From positions 3,844,001 to 3,908,000 of the forward strand of contig NZ_CP070225.1 in assembly GCF_021631985.1 (NCBI RefSeq): DNA of 64,000 nucleotides, in the 5' to 3' direction. A program made the position numbers and the translations under genes. The notes under the pieces are model-generated. The model made no database searches and was not told the DNA's origin. It was given only the letters and a program-made list of their open reading frames with translations. The stretch is from Sandaracinus amylolyticus (GTDB lineage: Bacteria; Myxococcota_A; Polyangia; Polyangiales; Sandaracinaceae). This document shows positions 31,125-49,716 of this stretch, in pieces (position 1 is the first letter of the stretch; each line of letters begins with the position of its first letter).

Positions 31125-32678
31125 CTACGCGGCGACTTCGCGGATTCGGCGCGCGAGGTCGCGCATCGAGAACGGCTTCGCCAGCAGCGGGCGGCCGGTC
31201 TCGAGCAGTGCGCGGTGCAGCGTCTCCGAGCGCAGGCCGCCCGAGACGAAGAGCGTGCGCGCGGCGAGCCTCGGGTCGAGCTCGGCGATCTCTTCGTACA
31301 GACGCAGCCCGTCCATCCCGGGCATGACGATGTCGCTCAAGAGCGCGTCGAAGCGCTCCTCGCTGCGCACGAGCTGCAGCGCGATCGGGCCGCTCGGCGC
31401 GGGCGTGCACTCGAAGTCCTCCGACAGCGAGCTCGTCATCGCGCGCAGCAGGAGCTCGTCGTCCTCGACGATCAGCAGGCGCAGTCGGCTGGCGCGCGGT
31501 GGCGGCTGCGAGACGGCGCGGGGCATCGAGTGCATCCGGCGTCCGCGCGGCAGGATCACGCGGAAGCGCGCGCCGAAGCCGGGCTCGCTCTCGACGAAGA
31601 TCTCTCCGCCGCAGCGGCGCACCAGCTCGCGCGTGATCGAGAGACCGAGCCCCGTGCCCGCGCCGATCTCCTTCGTCGTGAAGAACGGATCGAAGATGCG
31701 CTCCAGCGTCTCCGGCGCGATCCCCGGACCGTTGTCCGCCACCTCGAGGCACACGGCCTCGTCGTCGTGGCTCGTCATCACGCGGAGCCTGCGGGTCTCG
31801 AGCGCGATGGACTCGAGCGCCTGCAGCGCGTTCACGACGAGGTTCGTCACGACCTGCGTCATCGCGTGCGGCGGGGCCATCACGTACGGAAGGTCCCCGG
31901 CGAGATCGAGATCGACCTTCGCCTGATAGCGCACCTCGCGCCCGACGAGGCGCATCACCGTCTGCACGTCGTCGTTGATCGACGTCGGCTCGGGACGCGA
32001 GTCGTCCTCGTTCTTGCGCGAGAACACGTGCAGCGCGCGCACGATCGACGTGATGCGACGCGACGCCGCGAGCACGTCGCCGAGCGCCTCGAGCCAGTCG
32101 CTCGCGCGCTGGTGCAGCACGTCCGCCTGCTGGAAGCGCGGGCGCGACATCACCGCCTCGATCTCCTGCCGCACGCGCTCGGTGTTCGCGAGGATCGCGG
32201 TGCTCGGGTTGTTGATCTCGTGCCCGACGCCCGCCGCGAGCAGGCCGATCGCGGTCAGACGCTCGCTGTGCGCGAGCCCCGCAGTGAGCCGCGAGCGCTC
32301 CTCGCGCATCCCGTTCACGCGCCGCGCGAGCGCGACGACACGCATCATCCCGCGCTCGAGATCCGCCGCGTCGACCACGTCCGCCGCGCCGCCCTCGCGC
32401 AGCGCGCGCTCGATGTCGAGATCCACCGCGTCGTGCACCACCGGCACGACGAGCAGCTCGGGGAACGCCGCGCTCAAGCTGTGCGCGCGCGCGATCGAGG
32501 CCGCGCCGTGATCACCGAGCTCCACGAGCAGCACGGTGCCGCCGCGCAGCTCCGGCAGTGGGTCGCTCGCGGGCCACGCGAGCGCGATCTCGAGCTCGTC
32601 GCGCGACGCCTCCACGAGGCGGTCGGCGAGCTCGGGCCGCGACCAAGCGAGGAACGCGACGACGGGACCGCTGCTCAC
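31125..32678 (-). CDS. Soluble hybrid histidine kinase (pseudo-REC, HisKA, HATPase, REC)
   Basis: 517 residues, no membrane helix. Residues 5-115 look like a degenerate receiver: the strand LLVELGD has Glu where the phospho-Asp would be and the conserved Lys is absent. A short coiled coil leads to HisKA with His153 in GVGHEINNP, then a HATPase domain (NLVVNALQAL, DNGPGI, GAGTGLGLSI) and a C-terminal intact receiver (Asp449 in LLSDIVMPGMDG, Lys in AKPFS). GTG at 32678 was chosen because it overlaps the upstream stop (GTGA); a GTG three codons earlier is possible. It is the last gene of a coupled operon with two enzymes, so it may sense their product; that is inference. Confidence 0.9.
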   Translation of the reverse strand: MSSGPVVAFLAWSRPELADRLVEASRDELEIALAWPASDPLPELRGGTVLLVELGDHGAASIARAHSLSAAFPELLVVPVVHDAVDLDIERALREGGAADVVDAADLERGMMRVVALARRVNGMREERSRLTAGLAHSERLTAIGLLAAGVGHEINNPSTAILANTERVRQEIEAVMSRPRFQQADVLHQRASDWLEALGDVLAASRRITSIVRALHVFSRKNEDDSRPEPTSINDDVQTVMRLVGREVRYQAKVDLDLAGDLPYVMAPPHAMTQVVTNLVVNALQALESIALETRRLRVMTSHDDEAVCLEVADNGPGIAPETLERIFDPFFTTKEIGAGTGLGLSITRELVRRCGGEIFVESEPGFGARFRVILPRGRRMHSMPRAVSQPPPRASRLRLLIVEDDELLLRAMTSSLSEDFECTPAPSGPIALQLVRSEERFDALLSDIVMPGMDGLRLYEEIAELDPRLAARTLFVSGGLRSETLHRALLETGRPLLAKPFSMRDLARRIREVAA

Positions 32679-33808
32679 ACCCTGCACCGGCGCACATCGT
32701 ACCAGCGCACCACGACGGCGGTGCGGGTGAAGCCCGCCGCGGGCGAGTAGAGCAGTGCGATGCGCCCGTGCTCGAGCCGACCCTGCGCGCGCGCCTCCTG
32801 CAGGTTGAACACGATCGCGGCGTCACCGACGTTGGCGATGCGCGCGAAGGTGTCGACCGTGCGGTCCCGCGGCAGACCGAGCGATCGACGACACGCATCG
32901 AGGAACCATCCGAGGCTCTGGTTGCCCGTGTAGAGGTCCACGTCGTCGAGCGTCAGCCCTGCGTCGCGCAGCGCGCCGCTGCACGCCTCGCGACAGAACT
33001 CACCCGCGCGCAGCCCCGCGCTCTTGCCCGCGTCGGCATCGAACGACGCGAGCTGCATGCGGCCCTGCCCTTCCCACCACGCGCGCCGGGGCGCGCCCTC
33101 GACCACCGGCGCGAGCACGATTCCGTCCCGCAGCGATCCATCGGTGCGCGCGTAGTGGCCGAGCACACCGAAGTCGTCGGGCACGCGCTCGATGACCGCC
33201 GCCGCCGCACCGTCGCCGAAGTTCACCGACGCGACGCTCGTCGGATCCACCGAGCGCGTCCCCGCGTGCGACTGCACGATCAGCGCGCGACGGAACGTGC
33301 CGGCGCGGATCAGCGCCGCCGCCGTGACGAGCTGCGCCTGGAAGCTCGCGCATCCGACGTCGAGGCTCCACGCCGCCGCGCGCGTGAGCCCGAGCCGATC
33401 CTGCACCGCCGGCGCGTTCGACGGGATCAGTCGATCGGGCATCAGCGAGTGCACGAGCAGCAGGTCGATCGACTCGGGATCCACGCCCGCATCGCGCAGC
33501 GCCGCGCGCCCCGCCGCGGCCTCGAGCTCCGAGACGTCGTCGTCGTCGTCGATCACGTGCCGCAGCCGCGCGCCACGGAAGAGATCGTCGCCGGTCGCCG
33601 CGATCGCATCCGCGATCTCGCGTGGCATGGCCGTGCGCGCGCCCGACGACGTGCGCTCCACCGCGAGCACGTCGCCGCGTCGCTGGGTCTCGTCGCGCGC
33701 CACCAGCACGCCGTTCCAGAACGAGTTGTCGCGCACCTTCGGCGGCAACGCGGTCCCGATCCCCACGATCCCGATCCCACGCAGACCGCGCGCGCCTTCT
33801 TCACCCAT
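32675..33808 (-). CDS. FabH-like (KAS III) thiolase-fold enzyme lacking the catalytic histidine
   Basis: 377 residues of thiolase fold. Cys153 in SLDVGCASFQ is the acyl-accepting cysteine and Asn326 in RIANVGDAA matches the FabH active-site Asn. Where FabH has His in HQAN, this protein reads YTGNQ (Thr294 at the His position by my hand alignment). Loss of the His would impair malonyl-ACP decarboxylation and suggests an acyltransferase or a condensation not needing decarboxylation, as seen in other divergent KAS III proteins. Its ATG overlaps the end of the ThDP-enzyme gene by 8 bases (ATGGGTGA), and it overlaps the kinase gene by 4. It is not a housekeeping FabH by context. Confidence 0.85.
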   Translation of the reverse strand: MGEEGARGLRGIGIVGIGTALPPKVRDNSFWNGVLVARDETQRRGDVLAVERTSSGARTAMPREIADAIAATGDDLFRGARLRHVIDDDDDVSELEAAAGRAALRDAGVDPESIDLLLVHSLMPDRLIPSNAPAVQDRLGLTRAAAWSLDVGCASFQAQLVTAAALIRAGTFRRALIVQSHAGTRSVDPTSVASVNFGDGAAAAVIERVPDDFGVLGHYARTDGSLRDGIVLAPVVEGAPRRAWWEGQGRMQLASFDADAGKSAGLRAGEFCREACSGALRDAGLTLDDVDLYTGNQSLGWFLDACRRSLGLPRDRTVDTFARIANVGDAAIVFNLQEARAQGRLEHGRIALLYSPAAGFTRTAVVVRWYDVRRCRV

Positions 33809-35474
33809 CGTTCTCCGAGCTCCCGAACTGCTTCAGCGCCGCGACGCGCTGGTTGCCCGCGAGGCGCACGTCGGGATCGAAGCGCACGTCGAGCACCACC
33901 GGCCCGTCCGCTTCGTCCGAGAGCAGCCGCACGAGATCGAGCCGCGTGCGCACCACGTGGCCCTCGGCGCCCATGCTCCGCGCCATCAGCGCGAAGTCGA
34001 CGGGCGACGTCGTGAAGTCCGGCGCGCGCCCGAAGAGGTCGTGCATGCCGTGGTGCACCATGTTCAAGCGGCTGTCGTTCATCACGACGAACGTCACGCG
34101 CAGCCCGTGCTGCACCGCGGTCGCGAGCTCGTTGCCGTACATGAGGAAGCCGCCGTCGCCGCAGATCGCGAACGTGCGCCGCTGCGGCGCGCCCAACTGA
34201 TGACCGATCGCGGTCGCGATGCCAGAGCCCATCGATCCGAAGCCGAGGCACGTGATGAAGTCGCCGTGCTCGCTCACGCGCAGGTAGTGCAGCGCGACCG
34301 AGAGGTGCTCGCCCATGTCCGCGGTGAACACCGCGTCGCGCGGGCACGCCTCGTTCATCGCGAGCACGACCTCCATCGTCGTCAGCGCGCCGCTCGGCGA
34401 GGGCACGAGCGGCTGCGTCTCGACCAGGCTCGGACCGCGACCGAGCGGCTTCGAGATGCGCTCGTCCGATCGATGCTCGAGCATGCGCCCGATCACCTGA
34501 TCCGCAGGGCCCACGAGCCCGAGATCGATCGGGTAGTTCTTCCCGAGCTGCGCCGAGTCGATGTCGATCTGGAGGAACGCCCGGGTCGCGCGGAGCAGCG
34601 GCGACCACGCGTTCGTGGTGAAGTCGTTGAGCCCGCTGCCGACCGCGAGCAGCACGTCGACCCCGCGCTCGAGATACGAGATCACCGAGTCGTGCCCACC
34701 GAACCCGAGCACGCCGAGGAAGAGCGGGTGGTCCTCGGGGAACACGCCCTTGCCCTTCGTGGTCACGCAGACCGGCGCGCCCACGTGCTCGGCGAGCCTC
34801 CGCAGCGCGCGCCGTCCCGAGAGATCGCGCGTGCCCGCGCCCGCGAGAATCAACGGACGCTGCGCGCGCTCCAGCATGTCGAGCGCCCGTCGCGTCGCGT
34901 CCGAGTCGATCTCGAACGTGGTGCGCACGCTGCCCGAGAGCGGCTGCGACTCCACGTGCGCGCACGCGACGTCGAGCGGAAGCGAGACGAACACCGGGCC
35001 GCGGCGCCCGCTGTACGCCGTCGAGAGCGCCTTGCGCAGCACCGACGTCGCGGGCCCGGGGTGCGAGAGCATCACGCTCATCTTCGTGACCCGGCGCATG
35101 ATCGCGACCGCGTCGAAGCCCGCGGGCGATCCCTCCTGCAGCGCGCCGCGACCGAACGCCGAGCGCGCGACCTCGCCCGCGATGTGCACGACCGGAACGC
35201 CCTCGTAGAACGCGCTCGCGACGCCGGTCACCGCGTTCGTGATCCCGGGCCCCGCGGTCGTGAGCACCACGCCCGGACGCCCGGTCGCGATCGCGTAGCC
35301 GATCGCGAGGAACGCCGCGGTCGACTCGTGCTTGGTCGTGATGATGCGGACGTCGGGGCGCTCGAGCAGCGCGGCGTAGAGCGCGCTGATCGCACCTCCC
35401 GGGATCCCGAACACCACATCCACACCAAAATCGCGCAGCACGTCAACCAGCTGCAGCGCGACCGTGCCCTTCAT
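33801..35474 (-). CDS. Acetolactate-synthase-like ThDP-dependent enzyme
   Basis: 557 residues with the standard three-domain ThDP layout. Glu50 in TTKHESTAAF is the cofactor-activating glutamate; GDGGF (about 439) through VVMNDS (about 467) is the ThDP/Mg motif. No regulatory small subunit (IlvN/IlvH) gene is nearby, arguing against a dedicated branched-chain amino-acid role; the enzyme could decarboxylate a 2-oxo acid and ligate the resulting aldehyde unit to an acceptor (acyloin or acetolactate-type chemistry). ATG is supported by GAGG about 8 bases upstream and overlaps the stop of the DUF2378-like gene (ATGA). It is coupled to a FabH-like gene downstream, an uncommon pairing. Confidence 0.88.
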   Translation of the reverse strand: MKGTVALQLVDVLRDFGVDVVFGIPGGAISALYAALLERPDVRIITTKHESTAAFLAIGYAIATGRPGVVLTTAGPGITNAVTGVASAFYEGVPVVHIAGEVARSAFGRGALQEGSPAGFDAVAIMRRVTKMSVMLSHPGPATSVLRKALSTAYSGRRGPVFVSLPLDVACAHVESQPLSGSVRTTFEIDSDATRRALDMLERAQRPLILAGAGTRDLSGRRALRRLAEHVGAPVCVTTKGKGVFPEDHPLFLGVLGFGGHDSVISYLERGVDVLLAVGSGLNDFTTNAWSPLLRATRAFLQIDIDSAQLGKNYPIDLGLVGPADQVIGRMLEHRSDERISKPLGRGPSLVETQPLVPSPSGALTTMEVVLAMNEACPRDAVFTADMGEHLSVALHYLRVSEHGDFITCLGFGSMGSGIATAIGHQLGAPQRRTFAICGDGGFLMYGNELATAVQHGLRVTFVVMNDSRLNMVHHGMHDLFGRAPDFTTSPVDFALMARSMGAEGHVVRTRLDLVRLLSDEADGPVVLDVRFDPDVRLAGNQRVAALKQFGSSENDG

Positions 35475-36157
35475 GCGGTGTCCTCTTCGGGGCCGTCCTC
35501 TTCGGAGCCGAGGCGCCGGATCCGCACGATGCCGTCGAAGGGTCCGTCGAGCTCGGCCGCGACCTCGACGCGCTCGCGGCAGGTGCGCGCCACGCCCTCG
35601 AGGGCACCGACCATCGCGGACTCGATGTACACGTGCTCTTGCTTGATGCGCGTGACGATGGTGCGCGAGTCCGCGGACTCGACCGAGAAGCGCGCGTGCG
35701 AGACGACGGTCTGGCTCGCGTAGGCGCGCTCGAGCACGCGCAGCACGCTCAGCAGATCGGGCGTGACCACCGCGAGCGCCGCGCGCCCGAGCAGCGTGCC
35801 CGCCCACGCGTCGAACGCGCCGGACTGCAGCTCGCGCAGCCCCGCGTGGATCTGGTGCTCGCCGTAGTGGATCTGCGAGAGCAGCACGATGCGCGTGAGA
35901 TAGTCGCGCAACGAGTACATGCGAAACGCGGAGAGCCGGTGCACCGCGAAGAAGCGCCGGTACTCGCGCTGGGTGTCGGGCGAGAGCGTGCCCGCGCGAT
36001 CGTCGAGCATGTTGAAGAACGCACCGCGGCACGTCGCGCTCGACGGGATCTGCTTGAGCCGCCACGCGAGATCGGTCGCGCGATAACACGCCTCGATGTC
36101 GGCGCGCCCCGGCTCGACGCGACGAGAGGCAAGACCACCACGCGCGGCAGCGCTCAC
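35471..36157 (-). CDS. DUF2378/TIGR02265-like protein
   Basis: 228 residues resembling the myxobacterial paralogous family TIGR02265 (DUF2378): an N-terminal ATCRGAFFN block, a central Tyr-rich region (YSLRDYLTRIVLLSQIHYG), a Gly-Arg near FDAWAGTLLGRAAL, and a C-terminal strand-helix part (YIESAMVGALEGVAR). The family has no assigned function but is expanded in social myxobacteria, often beside regulators. GTG at 36157 has GAGG 7 bases upstream; a GTG two codons earlier is too close to that site. It is the promoter-proximal gene of the four-gene operon with the two enzymes and the kinase. Family call is from memory of the pattern. Confidence 0.75.
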   Translation of the reverse strand: MSAAARGGLASRRVEPGRADIEACYRATDLAWRLKQIPSSATCRGAFFNMLDDRAGTLSPDTQREYRRFFAVHRLSAFRMYSLRDYLTRIVLLSQIHYGEHQIHAGLRELQSGAFDAWAGTLLGRAALAVVTPDLLSVLRVLERAYASQTVVSHARFSVESADSRTIVTRIKQEHVYIESAMVGALEGVARTCRERVEVAAELDGPFDGIVRIRRLGSEEDGPEEDTA

Positions 36158-46631: not shown

Positions 46632-48071
<1,440 letters not shown>

Positions 48072-48078
48072 GAGGTCC

Positions 48079-49716
<1,638 letters not shown>

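Follow-up and report, generated by a model that had tools for sequence, protein, structure and literature searches.

Four overlapping genes of Sandaracinus amylolyticus, encoding a DUF2378 protein, a ThDP-dependent enzyme, a KAS III-like enzyme and a soluble hybrid histidine kinase, almost certainly form one functional unit, and this module has the look of a system for chemical signalling or self-sensing that has not been described before. The genes are located in the window, by which we mean the whole stretch of 64,000 nucleotides that was analyzed, and their positions and main features are as follows.

35471-36157, minus strand: DUF2378 gene (P0001, 228 aa), above the cut-off of Pfam PF09536
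35471-35474: overlap of the DUF2378 and ThDP genes, ATGA, 4 bases
33801-35474, minus strand: ThDP-dependent enzyme gene (P0002, 557 aa), TPP_enzyme_N/M/C
35325-35327, minus strand: codon of Glu50, which aligns with the Glu that activates the cofactor in ThDP enzymes
34077-34160, minus strand: GDG...N ThDP/metal-binding motif, residues 439-466, located by alignment
33801-33808: overlap of the ThDP and KAS III-like genes, ATGGGTGA, 8 bases
32675-33808, minus strand: KAS III-like gene (P0003, 377 aa), ACP_syn_III and ACP_syn_III_C
33350-33352, minus strand: codon of the catalytic Cys153, invariant across the family alignments
32921-32923, minus strand: codon of Asn296, at the position of the FabH catalytic His in the FabH alignment
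32675-32678: overlap of the KAS III-like and kinase genes, GTGA, 4 bases
31125-32678, minus strand: soluble hybrid histidine kinase gene (P0004, 517 aa), Pfam and NCBIfam
32304-32678, minus strand: N-terminal region of the kinase, with no Pfam match
31143-31475, minus strand: C-terminal receiver domain of the kinase, Response_reg, with the phospho-acceptor region SDIVMPGMDG

The sequence-only reading had described four overlapping minus-strand genes, and both the open reading frames and the sequence confirmed this arrangement, with overlaps of 4, 8 and 4 bases. The gene of the ThDP enzyme adjoins that of the KAS III-fold enzyme (32675-35474). The flanking genes with a Pfam match were unrelated in kind, namely a semialdehyde dehydrogenase gene and the gene of ribosomal protein S9 upstream of the module, and a glycosyltransferase-like gene downstream of it. 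Among the flanking open reading frames scanned, none beside the module was a gene for an acyl-CoA ligase, an ammonia lyase or a transporter, or a target gene. Elsewhere in the window, outside the module, a second ThDP-family enzyme is encoded at 48079-49716 on the minus strand (32% identical to P0002), with the gene of an aldehyde dehydrogenase (46635-48071) immediately downstream of it.

The KAS III-like enzyme was searched against 379 genomes of the phylum, and the full-length relatives obtained form a family in which most members adjoin a ThDP gene. The tree of this family contained several deep groups; DUF2378 accompanies two of them, the group of the window and one more. A profile was made from ten members of both DUF2378-carrying groups, the order and the class were searched with it, and the neighbourhoods were then inspected. 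Among the 25 loci of this KAS subgroup, all found by their KAS III-like sequence, DUF2378 was present in 22, and a histidine kinase lay beside the ThDP-KAS pair in 20. As a control, 112 other loci with KAS III relatives were used, most of which lie beside a ThDP gene and many of which are near-identical cyanobacterial loci; DUF2378 was found in one of them, and a kinase within 4 kb in 16. When only held-out loci, absent from the profile, were counted, DUF2378 was present in 13 of 15.

The set recurred across at least six family-level groups of myxobacteria, and the newly found loci L271 and L272, which belong to another order, contain the whole operon in the gene order of the window. Gene order varied while the set was kept. 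Besides the same-strand operon, DUF2378 was divergent in L074 and convergent in L213 and L214, and in L211 and L212 DUF2378 and the kinase formed a two-gene unit on the opposite strand, away from the enzymes, which argues for the kinase as the partner of DUF2378. The sequence-only reading would have been refuted by a gene order confined to one strain, and this check did not refute it: the four gene families recur together in other taxonomic families and orders. DUF2378 was missing from three subgroup loci, L070, L218 and L220. Outside the order, the KAS relative closest to P0003 is L070 (G077:C87, 9188-10345), which has no ThDP, DUF2378 or kinase gene nearby. L220 (G455:C675, 7369-9274) has a module-type ThDP-KAS pair without DUF2378, and about 4 kb from this pair a histidine kinase gene adjoins an H-NOX gene. 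It may be as if a true H-NOX had replaced DUF2378 there, or this proximity may be a coincidence, given the three H-NOX matches in that genome.

Next, the two enzymes were compared with characterized relatives. The closest solved structure to P0002 was BbmA (8x3x, E 1.8e-100), followed by CsmA (8x3z, E 1.1e-87), with acetolactate synthases behind at 6e-65, and the region around AFG[RK]GALQE was common to P0002 and BbmA. The catalytic motifs of P0002 were intact in the alignment, and the KHE motif, which contains Glu50, was kept in nearly all ThDP partners aligned. According to a 2025 paper, the acyloin-condensing CybE has CsmA and 'BpmA', presumably BbmA, among its homologs (PMC12395478). In cyanobacterin assembly, the ThDP enzyme CybE condenses two 2-oxo acids, and CybF acylates and cyclises after this step (PMC12395478). 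The sequence-only reading had suggested that the two enzymes may build a small ketone or acyloin-type molecule; the nearest solved relatives of P0002 support the predicted acyloin-type product.

The ThDP-KAS III pair CybE/CybF is a recognized biosynthetic couple (PMC12395478, PMC8777810), and in Plesiocystis and Enhygromyxa, which produce deoxyenhygrolides and enhygrolides, Hug et al. reported that homologs of CybE and CybF are encoded together (PMC8777810). Our scan of the named genomes recovered Plesiocystis, Enhygromyxa and many cyanobacteria, with the ThDP gene adjoining the KAS III gene in almost all. An aromatic ammonia lyase gene lay upstream of many of these pairs in cyanobacteria, and at the locus of Nostoc sp. 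210A four consecutive open reading frames were of the lyase, ligase, ThDP and KAS III types (the ligase was judged by eye). By sequence, P0002 and P0003 are assigned to the two-gene family whose characterized members are CybE and CybF. In a quick ThDP tree, made without a mixture model, P0002 fell outside the CybE clade, which is the clade of lyase-linked enzymes, and grouped with other module enzymes and L059. L059 (G369:C12, 9214-11963) encodes a ThDP enzyme 59% identical to P0002, whose partner is a CybF-type KAS III enzyme, and this pairing suggests an exchange of partners between branches.

Alignment with FabH showed that P0003 keeps the KAS III catalytic Cys (C153) and Asn (N326) and has Asn (N296) in place of the catalytic His, so the alignment agrees with its earlier description as His-less. 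P0003 does not have the Cys-His-Asn triad of FabH proper, and Asn was also found at the His position in most members of the CybF-type clade (NTPTAW motif). The AlphaFold2 model of P0003 (pLDDT 81) gave FabH-type fold matches, and its N-terminal region was common to its KAS III family. In the family tree, P0003 was located outside the CybF branch, a clade of 42 rows that includes the Nostoc 210A, Enhygromyxa and Plesiocystis members, and it grouped with L068-L070; the tree therefore rejected P0003 as a member of the CybF furanolide synthases. Since both enzymes lie outside the respective clades, we did not file them as CybE and CybF, and their putative chemistry is carried over at 28-35% identity. 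The product of the window enzymes, which sit on separate branches from CybE/CybF, is for this reason only probably acyloin-derived; it is perhaps butenolide-like, and not a proven furanolide.

Other branches of the KAS III family showed different contexts. L043, L044, L077 and L085 form a separate ThDP-KAS branch, in which the KAS His is retained and histidine kinase arrays follow. L088 and L091, on cyanobacterial plasmids, have CybF-clade KAS III genes inside salicylate-synthase/NRPS/PKS clusters. No ThDP partner was listed near these genes, so that the KAS III family also works without one.

DUF2378 has been described as a family that occurs only in myxobacteria and has no known function (PMC9257966). 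P0001 scored 27.0 bits against Pfam PF09536, above the cut-off of 22.2, and 20.7 against NCBIfam TIGR02265, below the cut-off of 25. When a profile of 54 DUF2378 sequences was compared with a profile of 16 H-NOX (HNOB) sequences, the two matched with 95.1% probability over 150 collinear columns, and with 94.4% when the module members were left out. The module DUF2378 proteins alone gave a partial, weak match to HNOB (28% over 46 columns), and they count as H-NOX relatives by their membership of the DUF2378 family. As controls, the reversed HNOB profile gave 0.1%, 29 column shuffles gave at most 16%, and the KAS, kinase and ThDP profiles gave 0.2% or less in the same comparison. Neither the DUF2378-HNOB profile alignment nor the module alignment showed a counterpart of the heme-ligand His or the YxSxR motif. 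The DUF2378 family is thus probably a distant, heme-less relative of H-NOX. A profile search of the PDB with DUF2378 gave no match, and AlphaFold2 on a single DUF2378 sequence gave no usable model (pLDDT 39).

In the DUF2378 tree, the module proteins were united in a single branch with an SH-aLRT support of 93, separate from 30 other proteins. Two rows labelled as other proteins fell within this branch, namely L266, a second copy of a module gene, and L267, which has a ThDP gene and a kinase as neighbours at the end of its contig and is, therefore, also a module. Genome G487, from the same taxonomic family as the window, carries two modules, L267 and L210, one of them on a truncated contig. 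In an uncultured Myxococcota, a DUF2378-like protein with a V4R-like C-terminus (L163, 133-834) precedes a CybF-type ThDP-KAS pair.

P0004 consists of an N-terminal region of about 125 aa followed by HisKA, HATPase_c and receiver domains. HATPase_c scored 90.7 bits and Response_reg 58.1 bits, HisKA was weak and below the cut-off, and a GHEINNP motif was present at the phospho-acceptor region, which places P0004 among the hybrid histidine kinases. Comparison of the N-terminal region with a receiver domain gave 36% probability for the window clade and 0.2% for the other clade, so a receiver-like fold was not established for this region.

We propose that the module couples the synthesis of a small molecule to its sensing via a DUF2378-kinase pair, a mechanism that in full is quite possible, though somewhat short of probable. 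The ThDP enzyme would condense two 2-oxo acids to give a product of the acyloin type, and the KAS III-fold enzyme, with its Cys and without the His, would place an acyl group from CoA or ACP onto the acyloin and may cyclise it to a butenolide-like compound. DUF2378, as a presumed heme-less H-NOX relative, would bind this product or a derivative of it and would control the neighbouring soluble hybrid kinase, much as H-NOX does its partner kinase. We infer this binding and the tuning of the kinase from the gene linkage and from the H-NOX-kinase precedent. The further idea that this is a new class of myxobacterial cell-cell signal, in which the ThDP and His-less KAS III enzymes make an acyloin ester or butenolide-like lactone, a heme-less H-NOX-type receptor controls the soluble hybrid kinase, and synthase and receptor are co-inherited, is put forward tentatively.

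The main alternative is that the genes form a specialised-metabolite operon with its own regulators, in which the product is antibiotic-like and not a signal, and DUF2378 and the kinase sense another cue (redox, gas, precursor or prey) and switch production on. We regard this as possible but doubtful. In its favour, the furanolides known to date have bioactivity (PMC12395478), the prey signal HHQ induced a DUF2378 gene in two myxobacteria (PMC9257966), and the H-NOX gene beside a kinase in L220, which has no DUF2378, would also fit. Furthermore, 96 of the 112 other ThDP-KAS loci had no kinase nearby, indicating that ThDP-KAS chemistry does not need one. However, the module does not contain the tailoring, export and precursor genes usual in such clusters, and the tight co-inheritance of sensor and enzymes despite rearrangements suggests more than shared regulation. 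It is less likely still that DUF2378 is a carrier or helper that holds a hydrophobic intermediate or product while the kinase answers something else. Such a role would suit the operon type, where the DUF2378 gene overlaps and precedes the ThDP gene, and the DUF2378-like gene ahead of the CybF-type pair in L163, but the pairing of DUF2378 with the kinase on the other strand in L211 and L212 and the relation to H-NOX, a fold that serves as a sensor working with kinases, speak against it. The same distant homology and kinase pairing make it unlikely that DUF2378 is a mere accessory of the enzymes, as the sequence-only reading had supposed.

That the four genes are chance neighbours in a compact, kinase-rich genome is highly improbable. 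The S. amylolyticus genome has at least 150 HATPase domains, of which about 0.11 would be expected in any 8 kb, so a kinase nearby is by itself weak evidence; for the 6 DUF2378 genes the expectation in any 8 kb is about 0.004. Recurrence of the set across many genera and in several arrangements refuted this explanation, with Fisher p values for DUF2378 of 3e-21 over all loci and 8e-15 over the held-out loci, which are inflated by the non-independence of related genomes.

Although myxobacteria are multicellular and have hundreds of orphan kinases, few pairs of a diffusible signal and its receptor are known from them, and a compact operon that unites synthesis with candidate perception makes the signalling idea testable. 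If true, the coupling of synthesis to sensing would provide the first function hypothesis for DUF2378, and it would place CybE/CybF-like chemistry in signalling, beyond toxin-like natural products.

The module shares features with several known systems. Like the module, the CybE/CybF systems (cyanobacterin, nostoclide and maculalactone, with deoxyenhygrolide candidates in Plesiocystis and Enhygromyxa) have adjacent ThDP and KAS III-fold genes, and the likeness extends to a long N-terminal region and to a kept Cys with His replaced by Asn in most members. In contrast to them, the module has no CoA ligase or ammonia lyase beside it, its enzymes fall outside both clades, and DUF2378 and a kinase accompany the pair. 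BbmA and CsmA, the closest solved relatives of P0002, resemble it by sequence. In the xenocyloin pathway of Xenorhabdus (XclA-E), a ThDP acyloin synthase is followed by KAS III-like acyl-transfer enzymes, so that the module resembles it in the kinds of enzyme encoded; unlike in the module, we know of no kinase in the XclA-E cluster. The literature search found no paper on stigmolone biosynthesis, none on a kinase coupled to a ThDP-KAS III pair and no description of such a pair combined with DUF2378 and a kinase, with most subscription journals lying outside its reach.

The alpha-hydroxyketone quorum-sensing systems CqsA/CqsS and LqsA/LqsS also pair the gene of a synthase with an adjacent one for a sensor kinase, and a ketone- or acyloin-type signal chemistry is plausible for the module. 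The CqsA and LqsA synthases are PLP-dependent and the CqsS and LqsS kinases membrane-bound, whereas in the module the candidate synthase is a ThDP enzyme, together with a KAS III-like one, and the kinase is soluble. H-NOX genes often adjoin hybrid kinases, and in the HnoK/HqsK type, as in the module, a small stand-alone H-NOX-related protein lies beside a soluble hybrid kinase; the module differs in that DUF2378 lacks the heme-ligand His and YxSxR and has biosynthetic enzymes among its neighbours. Synthase-kinase, ThDP-KAS III and H-NOX-kinase pairs are each known already; for their combination, the literature covered by our search gave no description.
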